From Anadara kagoshimensis (Eukaryota; Mollusca; Bivalvia; Arcoida; Arcidae), in assembly GCA_021292105.1 (NCBI GenBank), contig CM037871.1, forward strand, positions 53,365,261-53,429,260: a DNA stretch of 64,000 bases. The letters are read 5' to 3'. The translations under genes and the position numbers were made by a program. Position 1 is the stretch's first letter. Every line of letters starts with the position of its first letter. The notes beneath the pieces were generated by a model that saw only the letters and a program-made list of their open reading frames with translations, ran no database searches and was not told the DNA's origin. This document shows positions 1,575-58,660 of this stretch, piece after piece.

Positions 1575-3051
1575 AGAATGGTTACAACAAGACAGTAGTA
1601 GTCATCTAGAGTGGTTAACAGAAGGTAGTAGCCATATAGTGGTTAAAAGATACTGTAAACATATTCATTTTTGAAGTGTACTAATTTATGCTTATTTCGT
1701 GGTCATTCGTTTGCGCTTTTGCGCAAAAATTAAAACCAAGCGAAAATCATATTATGTATTATAGTGCATATTTAAAAAACATGAAAATTTAACTATGTGG
1801 ACGTCTAAATTTACCTCAAAAATATATACACAAGAAATTAAATACTTTTACATTAGTGGCCATTTAGTGGTATTAGAAGGAAGTAGCCCTCGAGTGGATA
1901 CTAGAAGGCAGTAGCAGCCATAAAGTGGTTAATGGAATGCAGTAGCCTTAGCATGGTTATGGAAAACAGTTGTCATCTAGTGGTTATTGGAACACAGTAG
2001 CCACCATCAAAAGATTATGGAATGCAGTAGCCATAGCATGATTATGGAAAACAGTTGCCATCCAGTGGTTATTGGAAGACAGTAGCCACCATCAAAAGGT
2101 TATGGAATACAGAAGCCATAGTATGATTATGGAAAACAGTTGCCATCCAGTGGTTATTGGAAGACAGTAGCCACCATCTAAAGGTTATGGAATGCAGTAG
2201 CCATAGCATGGTTATGGAAAGCAGTTGTCATCAAGTGGTTATGGAATACAGAAGCCATAGTATGGTTATGGAAACAAGTTGTCATCAAGTGGTTATGGAA
2301 TACAGAAGCCATAGTATGGTTATTGGAAATCAGTTGTCATCAAGTGGTTATGGAATGCAGTAGCCATAGTATGGTTATGGAAACAAGTTGTCATCAAGTG
2401 GTTATGGAATACAGAAGCCATAGTATGGTTATTGGAAATCAGTTGTCATCAAGTGGTTATGGAATGCAGTAGCCATAGCATGGTTATTGGAAATCAATTT
2501 TCATCAAGTGGTTATGGAATGCAGTAGCCATAGCATGGTTATGGAAAACAGTTGCCATCAAGTGGTTATGGAATGCAGTAGCCATAGCATGGTTATGGGA
2601 AATAGTTGTCATCAAGTGGTTATGGAATGCAGTAGCCATAGTATGGTTATGGAAAGCAGTTGCCATCCAGTGGTTATTGGAAGCAGTAGCCATCAAGTGG
2701 TTATGGAAAACAGTTGCCATCAAGTGGTTATGGAATGCAGTAGCCATAGCATGGTTATGGAAAGCAGTTACCATCAAGTGGTTATGGAATGCAGTAACCA
2801 TAGCATGGTTATAGAAAGCAGTTGCCATCAAGTGGTTATAGAATGCAGTAGCCATAGCATGGTTATGGAAAACAGTTGCCATCAAGTGGTTATGGAATGC
2901 AGTAGTCATAGCATGGTTATGGAAAACAGTTGCCATTAAGTGGTTATGGAATGCAGTAGCCATAGCATGGTTATGGAAAGCAGTTGCCATCCAGCGGTTA
3001 TTGGAAGACAGTAGCCATCAAGTGGTTATGGAAAGCAGTAGCCATCGAGTG
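1575..3051. repeat. 27-bp minisatellite with 54-bp higher-order unit
   Basis: The main array runs from about 1864 to 3051. Two diverged outlying units lie at about 1575-1645, followed by about 200 bp of unrelated DNA. The basic unit is 27 bp, of the form GGTTATGGAAnnCAGTnGCCAT. Two variants alternate, one ending CATAGCAT and one ending CATCAAGT, so the true period through most of the array is 54 bp. The unit is a multiple of three and lacks stops, so both strands stay open for 150 codons or more. That openness is a by-product of repetition, not evidence of a protein. Units become more diverged toward both edges. Confidence 0.9.
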
Positions 3052-4042: not shown

Positions 4043-6434
4043 GGGCAAATTAACAACAATAATTAAACCCTGGGCCTGGAACTTGGGCAAACTAATGATA
4101 ATTATCAAACCCTAGGCCTAAAACTCAGGCAAACTAACAATAATAAATTAATACTGAGCCACAAACTCAGGCAAACTAACAATAATAAATTAATACTGAG
4201 CCACAAATTCAGGCAAACTAACAATAATAAATTAATACTGAGCCACAAATTCAGGCAAACTAACAATAATAAATTAATACTGGCCACAAATTCAGGCAAA
4301 CTAACAATAATAAATTAATACTGAGCCACAAATTCAGGCAAACTAACAATAATAAATTAATACTGGGCCACAAACTCAGGCAAACTAACAATAATAAATT
4401 AATACTGGGCCACAAACTCAGGCAAACTAACAATAATAAATTAATACTGGGCCACAAACTCAGGCAAACTAACAATAATAAATTAATACTGGGCCACAAA
4501 CTCAGGCAAACTAACAATAATAAATTAATACTGAGCCACAAATTCAGGCAAACTAACAATAATAAATTAATACTGGCCACAAATTCAGGCAAACTAACAT
4601 AATAAATTAATACTGAGCCACAAATTCAGGCAAACTAACAATAATAAATTAATACTGGCCACAAATTCAGGCAAACTAACAATAATAAATTAATACTGGG
4701 CCACAAACTCAGGCAAACTAACAATAATAAATTAATACTGAGCCACAAATTCAGGCAAACTAACAATAATAAATTAATACTGAGCCACAAATTCAGGCAA
4801 ACTAACAATAATAAATTAATACTGAGCCACAAATTCAGGCAAACTAACAATAATAAATTAATACTGAGCCACAAATTCAGGCAAACTAACAATAATAAAT
4901 TAATACTGAGCCACAAATTCAGGCAAACTAACAATAATAAATTAATACTGAGCCACAAATTCAGGCAAACTAACAATAATAAATTAATACTGGGCCACAA
5001 ACTCAGGCAAACTAACAATAATAAATTAATACTGGGCCACAAATTCAGGCAAACTAACAATAATAAATTAATACTGGCCACAAATTCAGGCAAACTAACA
5101 ATAATAAATTAATACTGAGCCACAAATTCAGGCAAACTAACAATAATAAATAATACTGGCCACAAACTCAGGCAAACTAACAATAATAAATTAATACTGG
5201 CCACAAATTCAGGCAAACTAACAATAATAAATTAATACTGAGCCACAAATTCAGGCAAACTAACAATAATAAATTAATACTGGCCACAAACTCAGGCAAA
5301 CTAACAATAATAAATTAATACTGGGCCACAAACTCAGGCAAACTAACAATAATAAATTAATACTGGGCCACAAACTCAGGCAAACTAACAATAATAAATT
5401 AATACTGGGCCACAAACTCAGGCAAACTAACAATAATAAATTAATACTGAGCCACAAATTCAGGCAAACTAACAATAATAAATTAATACTGAGCCACAAA
5501 TTCAGGCAAACTAACAATAATAAATTAATACTGAGCCACAAATTCAGGCAAACTAACAATAATAAATTAATACTGAGCCACAAATTCAGGCAAACTAACA
5601 ATAATAAATTAATACTGAGCCACAAATTCAGGCAAACTAACAATAATAAATTAATACTGAGCCACAAATTCAGGCAAACTAACAATAATAAATTAATACT
5701 GAGCCACAAATTCAGGCAAACTAACAATAATAAATTAATACTGAGCCACAAATTCAGGCAAACTAACAATAATAAATTAATACTGGCCACAAACTCAGGC
5801 AAACTAACAATAATAAATTAATACTGGCCACAAACTCAGGCAAACTAACAATAATAAATTAATACTGAGCCACAAATTCAGGCAAACTAACAATAATAAA
5901 TTAATACTGGGCCACAAACTCAGGCAAACTAACAATAATAAATTAATACTGGCCACAAACTCAGGCAAACTAACAATAATAAATTAATACTGGCCACAAA
6001 CTCAGGCAAACTAACAATAATAAATTAATACTGAGCCAAAACTCAGGCAAACTAACAATAATAAATTAATACTGGGCCACAAACTCAGGCAAACTAACAA
6101 TAATAAATTAATACTGGCCAAAATTCAGGCAAGCTAACAATAATAAATTAATACTGGCCACAAATTCAGGCAAACTAACAATAATAAATTAATACTGAGC
6201 CACAAATTCAGGCAAACTAACAATAATAAATTAATACTGGCCACAAACTCAGGCAAACTAACAATAATAAATTAATACTGGGCCAAAACTCAGGCAAACT
6301 AACAATAATAAATTAATACTGGGCCACAAACTCAGGCAAACTAACAATAATAAATTAATACTGGGCCACAAACTCAGGCAAACTAACAATAATAAATTAA
6401 TACTGGGCCACAAACTCAGGCAAACTAACAATAA
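4043..6434. repeat. 42-bp minisatellite array (about 57 units)
   Basis: The unit reads TAACAATAATAAATTAATAC followed by TG-GCCACAAAnTCAGGCAAAC. Two common variants, 'GAGCCACAAATTC' and 'GGGCCACAAACTC', occur in blocks, and some units are 1-2 bp shorter through loss of a G in 'CTGGCC'. The first two units (4043-4130) are strongly diverged. The minus strand translates as a 14-residue hydrophobic repeat (SINLLLLVCLNLWL) that is broken wherever a short unit shifts the frame, so it is not a gene. The array is interrupted at 6435 by an inserted element and resumes for one unit at 7406-7446. Confidence 0.95.
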
Positions 6435-9404: not shown

Positions 9405-10075
9405 AATATCTTCTCTGCATAGTGATTTACCGAATAATTATATCAATCAAACATAACCACTATTTATGAATATCTTCTCTGCAAAGTGATTTACCCAATA
9501 ACCACTATCTACGAATATCTTTTCTGCATAGTGATTTACCCAATAACCACTATCTACGAATATCTTCTCTGCATAGTGATTTACCCAATAACCACTATCT
9601 ACGAATATTTTTTCTGCATATTGATTTACCTTATAACCACTATCTACGAATATCTTCTCTGCATAGTGATTTACCCAATAACCACTATCTACGAATATCT
9701 TCTCTGCATAGTGATTTACCCAATAACCACTATCTACGAATATCTTCTCTGCATAGTGATTTACCCAATAACCACTATCTACGAATATCTTTTCTGCAGT
9801 GATTTACCCAATAACCACTATCTACGAATATCTTCTTGCATAGTGATTTACCCAATAACCACTATCTACGAATATCTTTTCTGCAGTGATTTAACCAATA
9901 ACCACTATCTACGAATATCTTCTTTGCATAGTGATTTACATAATATTATATCAATCAAACATAACCACTATTTACAAATATCTTCTTTGCATAGTGATTT
10001 ACACAATAATTATATCAATCAAACACTAACCACTATTACGAATATCTTCTTTGCATAGTGATTTACACAATCTCG
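9405..10075. repeat. 45-bp minisatellite (about 14 units)
   Basis: The unit reads CACTATCTACGAATATCTTC then TCTGCATAGTGATTTACCCA ATAAC. Central units are nearly identical; outer units gain an extra ATTATATCAATCAAAC segment and short deletions. The plus strand is open for 190 codons because 45 is a multiple of three, giving a YPITTIYEYLLCIVI repeat; this is not treated as a protein. Confidence 0.9.
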
Positions 10076-46081: not shown

Positions 46082-46085
46082 TTAA

Positions 46086-46097
46086 CCCTTTCACCGC
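46086..46097 (+). repeat. piggyBac left terminal inverted repeat
   Basis: CCCTTTCACCGC directly follows the TTAA target site; it matches the reverse complement of the right end at 11 of 12 positions. Confidence 0.9.
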
Positions 46098-46150
46098 TAG
46101 ACGGACATATGTGTCCCTGTTGGCAGCACGCTAGAAGGACATATATGTCC
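46095..46150 (+). promoter_or_regulatory. Left subterminal direct repeats with palindromes
   Basis: A 22-bp segment, CGCTAGAnGGACATATnTGTCC, occurs at 46095-46116 and 46129-46150, 34 bp apart. The second contains the perfect palindrome GGACATATATGTCC. Position just inside the terminal repeat suggests transposase binding sites. Confidence 0.6.
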
Positions 46151-46261
46151 TTTTTAATACATTTTATGTAATCAATATTGTCCGCGATATTTCAAAATAC
46201 ACACATAAAACGTTGTGTATCAGTGTTTAGAAAACCAAATTAATTAAAAATAACTTTGAAT

Positions 46262-46317
46262 ATGCAAATTGACGTCAACGTCAAATTTGATGGCGTCATA
46301 ATCATTTTATGACGTCA
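46262..46317 (+). promoter_or_regulatory. Octamer and two CRE palindromes upstream of the transposase start
   Basis: ATGCAAAT (octamer, 46262-46269) and TGACGTCA (CRE, 46270-46277 and 46310-46317) lie 33-88 bp upstream of the start codon, with further GACGTC-like and GGCGTCAT sequences around them. In CG-poor DNA two exact CREs this close are unlikely by chance. They suggest CREB/ATF- and POU-type input to the transposase promoter. Confidence 0.45.
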
Positions 46318-46349
46318 TATTGACGCCGGCATATTCATGACTCGACGCC

Positions 46350-49300
46350 ATGGATTCGGACAATGAAGTTGACATCTTTGAAGAGGAGGCCGATCTGTCA
46401 TCGTCAGAAAATGAAAGTGGTGGGGTTTTGGAAATGAGGCCCGTTTGGACGGTTGTCCCAGATGCGGACAACTTCCAGTTTCCGCAAGATTTGCATGAGT
46501 TTAATCAAAGAATGGGCATTCGAATTCCTCTACCTAAAACATCTAAACCAATGGAGTATTTCGATGTATTAAGTACCTCTCTCTTTGAAATACTTGCATA
46601 TGAGACCAATAGGTATGCTTCACAGGTAATTAACACAGAAGAAGCACCCCCTTTCGCTAGGGAAAGAAATTGGAAGGATGTGACAGTGGATGAAATGTCG
46701 GCCTTTATTGGCCTTTATCTAGCAATGGGGATGGTAAAAAAGCCAACGATAGAGTCGTATTGGTCTCAAGGTGACCGCTTATGGCTATATGAAACCCCGT
46801 CATTTTCAAAAGTCATGATTAGGGATCGTTTCGAACTAATTCTGCAATTTTTACATGCAAATGACAATGCAAAAGGTATACCAAGGGGCCAACCTGGACA
46901 CGACCCAGCCCATAAGGTTAGACCGATACTGGACCTTCTTAATGTAAATTTCAAAACTGCATATAACCCTGGGAGAGATCTCACTGTGGATGAGAGCATG
47001 GTTGGTTTTAAGGGGAGGAACTATACAGTTCAATATATGCCAGGCAAGAAAGCCCATAGATGGGGTGCCAAGCTGTGGATTTTAGCAGAGGCAGACACTG
47101 GGTACACTCTCCATATTGATTTATATGCTGGTTAGTATCATTGTCTCAGTGTTAATGAATTAAATGAAAAACTGCTGAAGACTTTTTTCATATTTAAATA
47201 TTCTGACAAATTCGGGTGCTCTGGATTGCTCCAAAAATACTATACGTACATATTTATATACTTTGTATGAAGTATACAATACTTAGTATAAAGTATACAA
47301 TGTACGCTATTGTTTCAAAATTTAAGCTTTCTATACAATGTATACAATTTAAAAGGGGGGGGGGATACGGATCAAAATTAGTAGCAATAACTTTTCACCA
47401 TTTTTATTTAAAGTGCTCATTTTCTTGAATTTTAATACTTATAAATACTTTATATTTATGACATCAGATTCTTAGCATACTTCCCTTTGTTTTTTTTTTA
47501 ATTTTTATGTAGAAATGTAAATGAAGACATTTCATTACTAGTATATAATTATTTGACCGCCGTAGTGTGCTAATGTGGGACAAGATATCTTAACGTTTAA
47601 TAAAAATAATGGGAGATAGAATGGTACAAATAAGCTTTTTATGATGTTACTAGTATAAAAGATTGAACATGTAGGGAAAAGGAATACAACTCAAACCCGT
47701 AGTGAACATGGGCTGGGTTTCGATGTAGTGGCCAAATTATCGGAACACTATCTTGGAAGATACCACCACATAACGGTAGATAACGGATTTACAAGTCCAG
47801 TTCTGGCCAAATATATGTTTGAAAACGATACATACATGACTGGAACGGTGAGAGAAACTAGAAAAGGAATACCAAAGTCATTTCGACAAAAAATAAAGAA
47901 GGGAGATAAACTTGTCAGGCAGTCGGGCCCAGTCATGGCATTAAAGTATGGCGACAGAAAAAATGTTTGTCTTGTATCAACAATGATCACACCCATGTAT
48001 GTTATTTACTGTACAATATATTTGATTTAGATTTAGACATTTATAGCTGAACAATATGTCCTTGAAATTGTACAATTTCTAAACGATTTCTATTTCTAAG
48101 TCTGCTGTCATTCAGAACACGAGCAAACAAAAAATACAAACAAGACGTAAGCAAAAAACGTTTTCAGAATATAAATAACCAAATGAAATAAAATTTAATA
48201 ATAAAATTAAGCAATTCACACCATAAGGAAAAGAAACCGTGTTATTGCAATTCATTAATGTATTTCCAAAGACGGTTACGAGAACAGACACTTTACACTG
48301 GTACCGAAATGTGTTTTCGAAAATATACCGGATACTCGATTAAAATTTAAAAACAACAAGGAGCATGCGGCAACTGATAATATATTAAAAGAATATCAGC
48401 TTATTATTATTATGAAAACTTCTGTTGTTCGGCGTTTTCATTGTCACCTAATTAACTAGAAATCTTTTTTAGCATGGAAAATCATGAAAATAGTAGAGGC
48501 ATCGTTTCTGATATTCCAAGGACAGTGTATATGTACAACAAATTAATGGGTGGGGTTGATATAGCAGATCAGCAGATACAGACTTATGATCCAGATGTGA
48601 AGTCACTCAAATTATGGAAGAAGATTCTTATTAACCTTATTCTCAGGATTGTAGGTCTGTTTAACACGAAATATACATATTGATAATACACAGATTCAAT
48701 CATATTGATATTATGATATATAATTAAAAGTTAAACATCTTTACCATTCTTGATTTATTTAACTGTTTCTTTCATACTCAATTTTGATACACACGTGACA
48801 GATGTAGCTAAACAATTGGTGTTTACCCTTCCAGAACACAATGTCTTACCTCCCGGATGGAAATTCATGTGTTTAACTTGATGTCCAAATTTTCAAAGTT
48901 TTTTGCTTTTTACTTTGCTTTTGGGGTTGTGATTTGAACATGAACTAATATTTTTAGTGTTTTTTATTATTATTTCTAACGAACAAACAAAACAGATTTG
49001 TTTTAATGAACGGGGTCACCGAGGGTTTTGTTTTTCGCTATTTGCTGGTCCATTAGTCTGTGTATCTACAGTATCTGGCATGTACACGCTGTTTTCGATA
49101 TACATGTATGAGAATTAGTACAGGACCACTAAGCGTATTTATCGCATCAAAGTTAATGTGGCTACTGAACATATCATATGTAATAATTAATAAAAATTTT
49201 GAAGAATAAAATAAAATCACATATTTTCCGAGTTTGAAAGCCTATGTTTATTTTCAGTTAATAGCTACATCCTTTATGTACAAAATATGGGACATAGAAA

Positions 49301-49727
49301 AAAGATGACTAGACAAAGTTTTACAATGGCACTTTACGAACAGCTGATCGGTGATTATTGTTATGAAAGGAAAAGAAGTGGTAGACCCCGGGTATCACAG
49401 GTACCAGTACCATCAAGATTTACAGAGCGCCACTTCATTTATTTTATTCCAGGTATGGATTTATTTAATCACAGACCAACAAAAGAATGAAATATTAAAA
49501 GAACAATGTTTAACTTGTTAACTTTTTTCGCTAGCTATCAATTTCCTTATACTTTCATTTATGTATACATGCACTGTATTTTTATGTTTTCAGATGGAAA
49601 AAGGAAAATATGCAGAGTTTGCGATTCTCAAGTACGGACATGGTGCCCGGGCACACTTTGTGAAGTGGGACTATGTGTTGGGGATTGTTTTGAAAAGTTC
49701 CATACGAAGATGGTGAATGAGCCGTGA
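46350..49727 (+). CDS. piggyBac transposase, five exons, 537 residues
   Basis: This DDE/D-type transposase would excise and insert the surrounding element at TTAA. Exons: 46350-47130, 47675-47996, 48473-48654, 49258-49452 and 49594-49727. They join in frame through four GT-AG introns (544, 476, 603 and 141 bp; phases 1, 2, 1, 1) with donors GTTAGT, GTATGT, GTCTGT and GTATGG. The start is in good context (GACGCCATGG). The product has an acidic Ser/Asp/Glu N-terminus (residues 1-27). The DDE_Tnp_1_7 catalytic region has D214 in LTVDESMVGFKGR, D296 in HITVDNGFTSP and D397 in YNKLMGGVDIAD, aligning with D268, D346 and D447 of the Trichoplusia enzyme. The C-terminal Cys-rich domain has C500, C503, C511, C516, C521, C525 and H530. 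Length is slightly short of the usual ~590. No stop or frameshift is seen. Introns are unusual, since most piggyBac transposase genes I know are a single exon. Confidence 0.88.
48785..48960 (+). mobile_element. Dispersed repeat inside transposase intron 3 (putative PLE 3' segment)
   Basis: Contains ACACACGTGACAGATGTAGC, TGGTGTTTACCCTTCCAGAA, TGGAAATTCATGTGTTTAAC, TTTCAAAGTTTTTTGC, and TTGTGATTTGAACATG. These match 51905-52085 and, reversed, 50493-50760 and 19425-19800. It lies wholly within the intron, so it does not disturb the transposase reading frame. Confidence 0.55.
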
Positions 49728-50372
49728 ATGCAGCATGAGTAGTGATGTCGGTCATAATATTATGACTAATATATATAAACTTTGTATTATATTTAATTCA
49801 GTTTGTAAAATATAGTGATATTTCTGAAATTTGTTTAATCCTTTTGTCATTAAAAGGAATCTTAGTAGTAACTTTTTATTTCTTTGATACACATAAGAAA
49901 GTATATAAAGATACATGTATCACCCCCCGGCTTTAGAGTAGTCATCTCCAATGGAAATGAAACCAATTAATACAGAATACTGTATTTAAAACGTTTGGGA
50001 ATTCTTTTCGGCACTTTTTCGGATAGAAGTTTAATTTGTAAGACACGCAAAGTGAATAAAATAAATGTGTGTTTATATCTTTCATGACATTTAATCGTTA
50101 GATATAATATTGTGATACACAATTTTAATGTATTTCATTATATTGAATGAAAAAAGGTATATGACAATATTACAATTGAACAATAAACATTACATCTTCA
50201 TAAAATCATTTAAAAATCAATGAAAACTCTATAAAAATCTGTCAAGGGAATCTGTTTTAATATTAGTTTAAATACATGGTAGAATTGTATTATTTTCGCG
50301 CACCTCAACTTAACATTAAGTGATGACGTCGGAAAACTTCGCGTACCGCATGACGTTATCATTTGAAACTTC

Positions 50373-50384
50373 GCGGCGAAAGGG
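50373..50384 (-). repeat. piggyBac right terminal inverted repeat
   Basis: GCGGCGAAAGGG directly precedes TTAA at 50385. Its reverse complement, CCCTTTCGCCGC, differs from the left end at one base. Confidence 0.9.
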
Positions 50385-50388
50385 TTAA

Positions 50389-56892: not shown

Positions 56893-58660
56893 TCTGCACT
56901 GGAACTGTAGAGCATGATCTTAAATGACTCCACAGTTGCCTGTGTGACAACCTTCTCTGGTAGCATGTTCCACTCTGTGATGGTGCGAGGGAAAAAGCTA
57001 CACTTATAGGTGTCGGTGTTGCAGCTGATTGGGATAAAGCTGATGCTGTTGTGCTCCCTTGTCTGTTTATTGGATGGTGTTACGTCCTTGGGTAGTCAGA
57101 GCATTCCAATTCTATTGACGCACTTATAACATTGCACAAGTCGCTGGTCTTGTCTGCGTTGCTTAATTAACGGCCACTGGAGGTTCTGAAGCATTGATGT
57201 TACGCTTTTAGTGCGGTTGTAGCGTCCTGTGACAAACCTGGCTGTCCTACGCTGGACCATTTCTACAGTATTAATCTGGTACTGGCGATAGGGATCCCAT
57301 ATGGATGCTCCATATTCCAGGTGGGGTCTTATGCGGGAAAGATATGCTCTGTCTTTCACCTCTTTGTTGCATCTGCCAAGATTCCGCCGTAGAAATGACA
57401 GGATACCAGTTGCCTTGGCTGTCATTTGGTCGATGTGATTCTTCCAGTTGAGGTCATTGGATATCTCTACTCCCAAGTATGGATTATGTTCTACTTCGGC
57501 AAGTGTTGTGCCACTGGTGTTATAGGCAGCCTGTCTGATAATGGATGTTCTTGACCTCTTCATTCTCATCACATAACTCTTCTTTGCGTTGAATTGCAAC
57601 AGCAAATCTTTGGTCCAGTTAACCATGTACTCTAGGTCTCTCTGCAGGATGGTTGTATCATCCTTTGATTCGATTACTCTGTAAAGGAGACAGTCATCTG
57701 CAAAAAGCTTTACTCTGGATCCTATTCCCTCGCCGATGCCATTAACATATAGCAGGAACATGAGAGATCCAAGGACTGTTCCTTGAGGTCCGGATTCAAC
57801 TGGAACTTCTGCTGATGATTCTCCATCCAATACAACCTTCTGTGATCTTTTGTCAGCTACTGGCTTATCCATTTGTGTGTAAGGTGTTCCACTCCATAGT
57901 ATGTAAGCTTGTTGAGATGTCGTTGATGGGGCATAGTGTCAAGAGATTTAAAGAAGGCCAGTATCATCATATCAACCTGTTTCCTGTTGTCTAGAGCTCG
58001 GGAGATCCCCTCGATTGTGGTAATAAGCTGGGTCTCACACGAGTGACCTGTTCTGAAACCATGTTGATAGTCAACCAGGATGCTGTTTGTGTTCAGATGA
58101 TGCATGACTTGACTAAAAACTATATGTTCCATAACTTTACATACTGCAATGGTCAGTGACACTGACCTATAGTTGCTCGGGTCGGTCTTGCTTCGCTGTG
58201 ATGTTAGCATGCCGCCAGTCTGATTGGACTTGACCTTTGTCATAAGAGTGCTGGAATACAATGGCTGACACTCTGGATGTTTCATCTGCTGTCAGTTTCA
58301 GTATTCTTGTAGGTATGTTGTCTGGTCCGCTAGCTTTCGGCCTGACATCAAGGGGTTTCAGTTGTTTTGATATCCCATTTGGTCACGGTAAATTCTATCA
58401 TGTCCATTGATGGAAAGTGGGCGAGCTTGGGTCTTTAATTGGTATATTGTCCCCAGGTTCACTTGTGAAGACTGACTGGTATTGTCTGTTCAGTGCTGCT
58501 GCTTTCTGTTTAGGTGTTGATAGAAGTGTACCATTCTCCTTCAGTGATAGTATCCTACTGCTGTTGTTCCTTTTACTTTTGATATAGTTGTAAAACCTAA
58601 AATAGTAAGATAAGTCCCTGGGCATATGTATAAATAAAACGGGATGTGCTATTTATTTAA
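56893..58660 (-). pseudogene. Non-LTR (jockey/CR1-group) LINE relic, minus strand
   Basis: Reading the minus strand from 58625: a linker block (LSYYFRFYNYIKSKRNNSSR, ILSLKENGTLLSTPKQKAAA), ASGPDNIPTRILKLTADET near 58330, NYRSVSLTIAVCKVMEHIV, YQHGFRTGHSCETQL, then MMILAFFKSLDTMPHQRH. Here LDFSKAFD has become LAFFKSLD, losing the first catalytic Asp. After a frameshift near 57865 comes a 258-codon block with QGTVLGSLMFLLYVNGIG, intact VKLFADDCLLYRVIES, NPYLGVEISNDLNWKNHID, and RPHLEYGASIWDPYRQYQI. A last block at 56905-57095 reads TPSNKQTREHNSISFIPISC then FFPRTITEWNMLPEKVV. It lacks the 5' endonuclease. Its FADDCLLYR subtype differs from the FADDTKIY type of the neighbouring relic, so the two are separate lineages. 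Confidence 0.85.

Follow-up and report, generated by a model that had tools for sequence, protein, structure and literature searches.

Background

The transposase domain of piggyBac elements is customarily carried in a single open frame, and passages of one study give only PGBD5 and the ciliate PiggyMacs as exceptions (PMC3902484). PGBD5, a domesticated gene of chordates, has several introns within this domain, and whether it held introns before its domestication could not be said, according to the same passages (PMC3902484). Here we describe a piggyBac element of 4,307 bp whose transposase gene is split by four introns, located in a 64,000-nucleotide stretch of the genome of the bivalve Anadara kagoshimensis (the window; C15:53365261-53429260 of an assembly of 1.115 Gb in 36 contigs, within which the genome-wide searches were made). 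The element resembles the rest of its superfamily in the DDE_Tnp_1_7 domain, the DDD residues, the TTAA target, the terminal repeats beginning with 5'-CCC and, probably, the C-terminal cysteine-rich stretch, but departs from the usual piggyBac in its split gene, the single frame being a customary and not a defining trait. It shares with PGBD5 the presence of several introns within the transposase domain; however, PGBD5 is described in those passages as a single-copy gene without terminal repeats and without three of the four conserved aspartates (PMC3902484). The element described here, in contrast, is present in eight copies, has terminal repeats and has kept the aspartates.

Intron-bearing DNA transposons of animals have reportedly been met before, since Puzakov et al. 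in 2020, cited in PMC10294476, are said, by the title of their work, to deal with spliceosomal introns in Tc1-like elements of molluscs, although these belong to another superfamily. The transposase genes of CACTA and plant mariner-like elements have variable introns, with gain and loss within genes, according to parts of PMC4158355; this change of intron content resembles what we describe, but it concerns plants and other superfamilies, and in CACTA it is mostly intron loss (PMC4158355). For piggyBac itself, a survey of 212 types, with ten molluscs among the species searched, presents single open reading frames, and the word intron is absent from it as far as its main text goes (PMC10813416). 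Word searches of PMC9942806, PMC10140906, PMC12324416 and PMC5822658 turned up no mention of introns in autonomous piggyBacs, and searches of the open full-text literature, judged by titles, abstract openings and passages, yielded no report of an intron-bearing autonomous piggyBac; as most subscription journals and the Repbase reports lay outside this literature search, priority is not established. There is likely a blind spot here: a library of bivalve elements demanded a frame of more than 300 amino acids (aa), as stated in a passage of PMC10294476, and such a filter, or a survey of single frames (PMC10813416), could class elements of this kind as broken; the longest uninterrupted open stretch of ours is 264 aa.

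A piggyBac element with a split transposase gene

An earlier note on this DNA, made from its letters alone, had described an intact piggyBac element encoding a 537-residue protein once four GT-AG introns of agreeing phases are removed, and both parts of this description stood. The element is bounded by TTAA on both sides (Table 1), and its short terminal inverted repeats, CCCTTTCACCGC and CCCTTTCGCCGC, are identical at 11 of the 12 positions and start with the CCC/CCY typical of piggyBac. Five exons (781, 322, 182, 195 and 134 nt) join to 1,614 nt, that is 537 aa plus stop, from the ATG at 46350 to the stop codon ending at 49727, and GT...AG was verified at all four junctions (47130/47675, 47996/48473, 48654/49258 and 49452/49594; phases 1, 2, 1 and 1). 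Residues 67-432 of the spliced protein match Pfam PF13843 (DDE_Tnp_1_7) with an E-value of 9e-81 and 272.3 bits, versus a cut-off of 22.4. In both piggyBat and Trichoplusia ni (T. ni) piggyBac, aspartates line up with D214, D296, D397 and D400, and we take these to be the catalytic residues. These two relatives of solved structure gave phmmer E-values of 7.8e-47 (piggyBat, 9c0f) and 9.5e-31 (T. ni piggyBac, 6x67/6x68), and the cysteine/histidine pattern at residues 500-530 also aligns with that of piggyBat, with Pfam zf-Tnp_2 reaching only 13 bits versus a cut-off of 24.

Table 1. Features of the element, in positions of the window
Feature	Position	Strand	Basis or remark
Left TTAA target-site duplication	46082..46085	.	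sequence; single TTAA in empty locus L064
5' terminal inverted repeat CCCTTTCACCGC	46086..46097	+	11/12 match to 3' end
Subterminal palindrome GGACATATGTGTCC, possible transposase binding site	46103..46116	.	palindrome scan; function presumed
Second palindrome GGACATATATGTCC	46137..46150	.	palindrome scan
Exon 1, with D214 (46989-46991)	46350..47130	+	junctions, frame, spliced alignment
Intron 1, phase 1, 544 nt	47131..47674	+	spliced alignment; found only in the 8 element copies
Exon 2, with D296 (47779-47781)	47675..47996	+	frame
Intron 2, phase 2, 476 nt	47997..48472	+	common to both clade branches; acceptor the least certain site
Exon 3, with D397 (48558-48560) and D400	48473..48654	+	frame
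Intron 3, phase 1, 603 nt	48655..49257	+	common to both clade branches
Exon 4	49258..49452	+	frame
Intron 4, phase 1, 141 nt	49453..49593	+	spliced alignment
Exon 5, entire C-terminal cysteine-rich stretch (C500-H530) and stop	49594..49727	+	frame
Candidate poly(A) signal AATAAA	50055..50060	+	motif only; others ATTAAA 49849, AATAAA 50182
3' terminal inverted repeat	50373..50384	-	11/12 match to 5' end
Right TTAA target-site duplication	50385..50388	.	sequence; single TTAA in empty locus L064

Based on the TTAA at both sides, the matching ends, the frame with its DDD residues, a precise empty site, introns shared with divergent relatives and purifying selection on the spliced frame, we conclude with a probability of roughly 90% that this is a structurally complete, recently inserted piggyBac transposon, whose transposase would be made only after spliceosomal removal of the four introns. 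The host spliceosome would remove the introns, and the resulting transposase would bind the terminal repeats, probably also the subterminal palindromes of the 5' end, and would move the element by cut-and-paste between TTAA sites, as is usual for piggyBac. That such splicing takes place in the animal and that the transposase is active are both inferred from the sequence.

Intron sites were modelled with a spliced protein-to-DNA aligner written for this study, which was run on 55 fetched loci (48 + 3 + 4, with L008 and L022 being one place) in addition to the window; 126 piggyBac matches were listed genome-wide, and the counts below cover the fetched loci only. We denote a site by residue and phase, so that introns 1 to 4 of the element are 260.1, 367.2, 428.1 and 493.1. 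The same four introns were recovered with the spliced protein as the query and with L003, an intronless relative at 38% identity. A second intronless query, L008, left introns 1 and 3 unchanged, shifted the acceptor of intron 2 by 24 nt and missed intron 4. By every sequence test applied, the four introns appear to be genuine, and old.

Introns shared with divergent relatives

Relatives at about 45-51% protein identity have intron positions and phases in common with the element. In L012 (51%) all four introns occur with residue and phase unchanged, and L018 and L047 (50%) have all four plus an extra one at 322.2, the donor of which is also retained in L017 and L019. Three of the introns are present in L014 (47%), where the model stops before the fourth, while L020, L027, L029 and L030 (45-47%) have 367.2 and 428.1 in common with the element and introns of their own at 205.2 and at 255 or 274. 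A donor persists at the 260 site of L021 and L046; in L021 a 2-base insertion displaces it. The ends are GT-AG, and position and phase are conserved where length and sequence diverge, as is expected of spliceosomal introns. We excluded doubtful calls in L002 (at 32), L007 and L022 (87), L013 (171), L026 (268), L028 (356, 20 nt), L031 (205.1 and 351), L036 (22 and 48), L042 (501) and L046 (218). No intron was called in 12 loci of intronless families (L001, L003-L006, L008, L023, L048 and L060-L063); L022, which covers the place of L008 in a longer fetch, gave a single N-terminal call, that at 87. As a control against circularity, the two intronless queries were run on ten targets with 36 modelled introns, of which L003 placed 27 exactly and L008 23. 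Since sites and phases are shared by divergent families and the spliced frame is under purifying selection (see below), chance is not a fair reading of these junctions, in agreement with the earlier note, which had held it to be unlikely.

These introns could also serve as a switch, with retention of intron 4 giving a transposase without the cysteine-rich domain, or with splicing confined to particular cells, as happens with the P element of Drosophila. The cysteine-rich stretch indeed sits alone in exon 5, and in L010, another copy of the element, an in-frame stop lies at most 12 residues past each of the four donors. However, AT-rich introns are expected to hold in-frame stops, and intron 4 is absent from the loci of the other branch of the clade that reach its site (L020, L027, L030 and L031) as well as from the intronless families; we consider a regulatory role of this kind rather improbable.

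Phylogeny and the direction of intron change

In the 46-row tree, the intron-bearing clade that holds the element has 19 rows (support 100/99), and its sister comprises six rows that are intronless save for the one doubtful N-terminal call in L007 (joint node 97/94). A 42-row tree omitted L009, L011, L015, L016, L022, L028, L032, L035 and L045, and the 46-row tree also L013, L050 and L051. A single change on the tree accounts for 428.1 (36 rows scored) and for 493.1 (31 rows), and two changes for 367.2 (37 rows), 205.2 (44) and 260.1 (42). The second changes seem to come from shifted or broken models, namely those of L031 (367.2 and 205.2) and of L021 and L024 (260.1). The tree favours stepwise gain, a simpler reading than loss even though the deep nodes are weak: two introns would have been gained on the stem of the 19-row clade and the others later, all in a mobile lineage. 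The suggestion in the earlier note that the lineage may have gained its introns is in agreement with this result, as the introns are common to the lineage and, given the intronless sister and parsimony, were most likely gained there.

Two further intron-bearing piggyBac lineages were identified. In one, seven loci (L025 and L037-L042) share a lone intron at 256.2, which is 513-545 nt long; the copies are 97.5-98.6% alike in the three pairs compared, and L038 and L041 can be aligned up to GGGTTAA. The other, at 31-33% identity, has introns at 189.0 and 241.0 in L034, L036, L043 and L044, and at 132.2 in the two loci that reach this site. The terminal-repeat scan returned no TTAA ends for any locus of these two lineages, some loci being cut before their ends.

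If introns were ancestral to piggyBac, the intronless families would have lost them, and the weak support of the deep nodes in both trees leaves some room for this. However, none of the 12 scored combinations of site and phase is common to any two of the three intron-bearing lineages, and the scored sites are likewise missing from the 12 intronless-family loci, so that we hold an ancestral origin to be unlikely and prefer gain within the lineage.

A possible trace of intron gain through a transposable element is found in the younger, 661-nt intron of L018 at 322, the 3' half of which (approximately 312-628) matches a dispersed repeat (40 of 1,427 first-look candidates were scored); this repeat either made the intron or entered it afterwards. 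Intron gain has been tied to transposable elements in aquatic taxa, according to passages of PMC9860276.

Introns and insertions among the copies

Eight copies of the element were found, namely, the one in the window, L009, L010, L011, L015, L016, L049 and L050, so that further copies with the same intron positions, for which the earlier note had proposed to search, do exist. Intron 1 is present in all eight, and for six of the seven other copies the models place introns 1 to 4 at unchanged residues and phases. In L009 introns 1 and 2 could be read, with the remainder of the copy lying about 14 kb further on and an exon 4-5 spacing like that of the other copies, and the donor of intron 2 in L049 reads GTTATT. 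No copy with joined exons of the element was found among the 135 matches scored (the best candidates), nor does any of the copies found have an uninterrupted frame. L024, a candidate for joined exons at aa 260, was rejected, as it has an internal deletion that leads into sequence resembling the 3' end of an element.

Intron lengths vary among the copies regardless of multiples of three, those of intron 1 being 544, 606, 607, 608, 609, 610, 613 and 619 nt. Across six aligned copies, of which L009 and L016 were included in part, variable columns number 31 of 1,614 in exons and 66 of 1,761 in introns (Fisher p 0.0018). Within exons, 11 changes are at the first, 2 at the second and 18 at the third codon position (p 0.004), a pattern which points to purifying selection on the spliced frame between copies. 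The exons for the most part remain in frame. Within the aligned parts, exon insertions or deletions come only from L011 and L015; outside them, exon insertions occur in L009 and L016, and more frameshifts or insertions in L049 and L050.

One might still suppose that the interruptions are insertions, such as miniature inverted-repeat transposable elements (MITEs), or products of decay in a dead copy. Exon insertions do occur in L009, L016 and L050, and the dispersed repeat in the 322.2 intron of L018 is of the same tenor. However, the other copies and families at 45-51% identity repeat these sites, phases and GT-AG ends, and exons evolve more slowly than introns, with a codon-position pattern. 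Moreover, a search of the genome with intron 1 gave matches only inside the eight element copies, and it is therefore not a dispersed repeat. Insertion or decay is thus a very unlikely source of these interruptions.

The exon 1 insertion of L016 is itself a mobile element of 4.7 kb, with roughly inverted ends (GAGTACCGGCGCGAGAAAAGGTAC at one of them) and an apparent 4-bp ATAT duplication.

Mobility of the element

Elsewhere in the genome the left flank of the element is matched once, at a distance of 300 kb and with 99% identity. This locus, L064 (C15:53711000-53711900), crosses from the left to the right flank through a single TTAA and is a precise empty site; the earlier note had proposed a search for polymorphic TTAA insertions. 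The alignment is 98.5% identical on the left (338 columns, with 4 mismatches and 1 gap) and 94.9% on the right (569 columns, with 5 mismatches and 3 gaps). The empty site is either paralogous or allelic, or the product of a perfect excision. The two stretches, 95-99% identical and 300 kb apart on the same chromosome, reflect either a segmental duplication or an allele that was not purged from the assembly.

TTAA and inverted-repeat ends were also found in the intron-bearing loci L012, L017, L018, L020, L027 and L047. Overall, the terminal-repeat scan returned a TTAA pair in 18 of the 48 loci and none in 30, and the match in L013 is AT-rich and not trusted. Three elements of about 300 bp (L052, L057 and L058) carry both L012-type ends, suggesting that the intron-bearing clade has mobilised MITEs. 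In L050, another TTAA element with CCCTTTGAGTGCC ends is nested at an internal TTAA of the copy, and no piggyBac transposase was recognised in this nested element. The empty site, the near-identical copies and the short elements with related ends are indirect signs of transposition activity. We consider it highly probable that the transposon has been mobile recently and that it would depend on host splicing. That the gene is a domesticated host gene like PGBD5, for which a multi-exon transposase domain is reported in passages of PMC3902484, is scarcely credible against eight copies, TTAA with inverted repeats, an empty site and intact DDD residues.

Several observations nevertheless weigh against a complete, recently inserted and spliced transposon. 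Among the eight copies in this assembly, that of the window alone combines both ends with an intact frame; the frame of L010 is intact but its 3' repeat is missing, and frameshifts or insertions affect the remaining six. Intron 1 of the window copy lacks a block of approximately 58 bp and 14 nt beside the acceptor, both kept in other copies, and has little pyrimidine tract, so that the window copy may not be the best-spliced one. In the control with distant queries, 9 of the 36 introns were moved or missed with L003 and 13 with L008, and intron 2 was placed exactly in four of eight targets with L003 and in none of eight with L008 (the donor was kept in seven of eight). The aligner also made false calls, namely, a 20-nt 'intron' in L028, one of 86 nt in L042, and insertions taken as introns in L016 and L050. 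Finally, with weak deep nodes, the choice between basal gain and loss rests on parsimony.

Implications of a probable intron gain in transposons

The introns shared by divergent relatives suggest that a lineage of mobile DNA transposons can gather introns while still jumping, and where an intron-rich mobile clade stands beside an intronless sister, intron gain in a selfish gene is recorded with internal replication. It is conceivable, though we advance it only tentatively, that autonomous piggyBacs gained introns repeatedly and stepwise, while mobile, under selection for intron carriage, and that genes like PGBD5 may have inherited theirs. As speculatively, this selection could have been for escape from the surveillance of intronless transcripts, of the kind exerted by HUSH in human cells, or for confining the transposase to splicing-competent cells; introns counteract the HUSH silencing of intronless transgenes, according to PMC8770142. 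If this holds, intron-rich domesticated genes such as PGBD5 may owe their introns to such elements instead of having acquired them as genes of the host. Studies of domesticated transposases start from an ancestor free of introns, with the ancestral state set at zero introns in a passage of PMC3369469, and the intron-rich mobile clade bears on that assumption.

Subterminal palindromes and other features of the window

A palindrome centred 28-29 bases inside the 5' end was present in all 12 elements tested, with or without introns (the window copy, L001-L003, L005-L007, L012, L017, L018, L020 and L027, which are related and hence not independent). The 5' ends scored 5-8 of 8 as the best of eight centres, with a one-centre background frequency of at most 0.05 each, versus 3-5 for the 3' ends at the same offset. 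The offset is constant and the palindrome sequence is family-specific, a pattern that looks like that of a recognition site co-evolving with its transposase. T. ni piggyBac has a palindromic subterminal site, and by analogy the 5' palindrome is probably bound by the cysteine-rich domain. L020 has three units of 35 bp there.

Elsewhere in the window, the repetitive stretches at 2424-3017, 4635-5821 and 9438-10058 give long open frames on one strand or on both. On the minus strand, open frames at 57096-58291 look by eye like reverse transcriptase and are probably the remnant of a non-LTR (long terminal repeat) retrotransposon.

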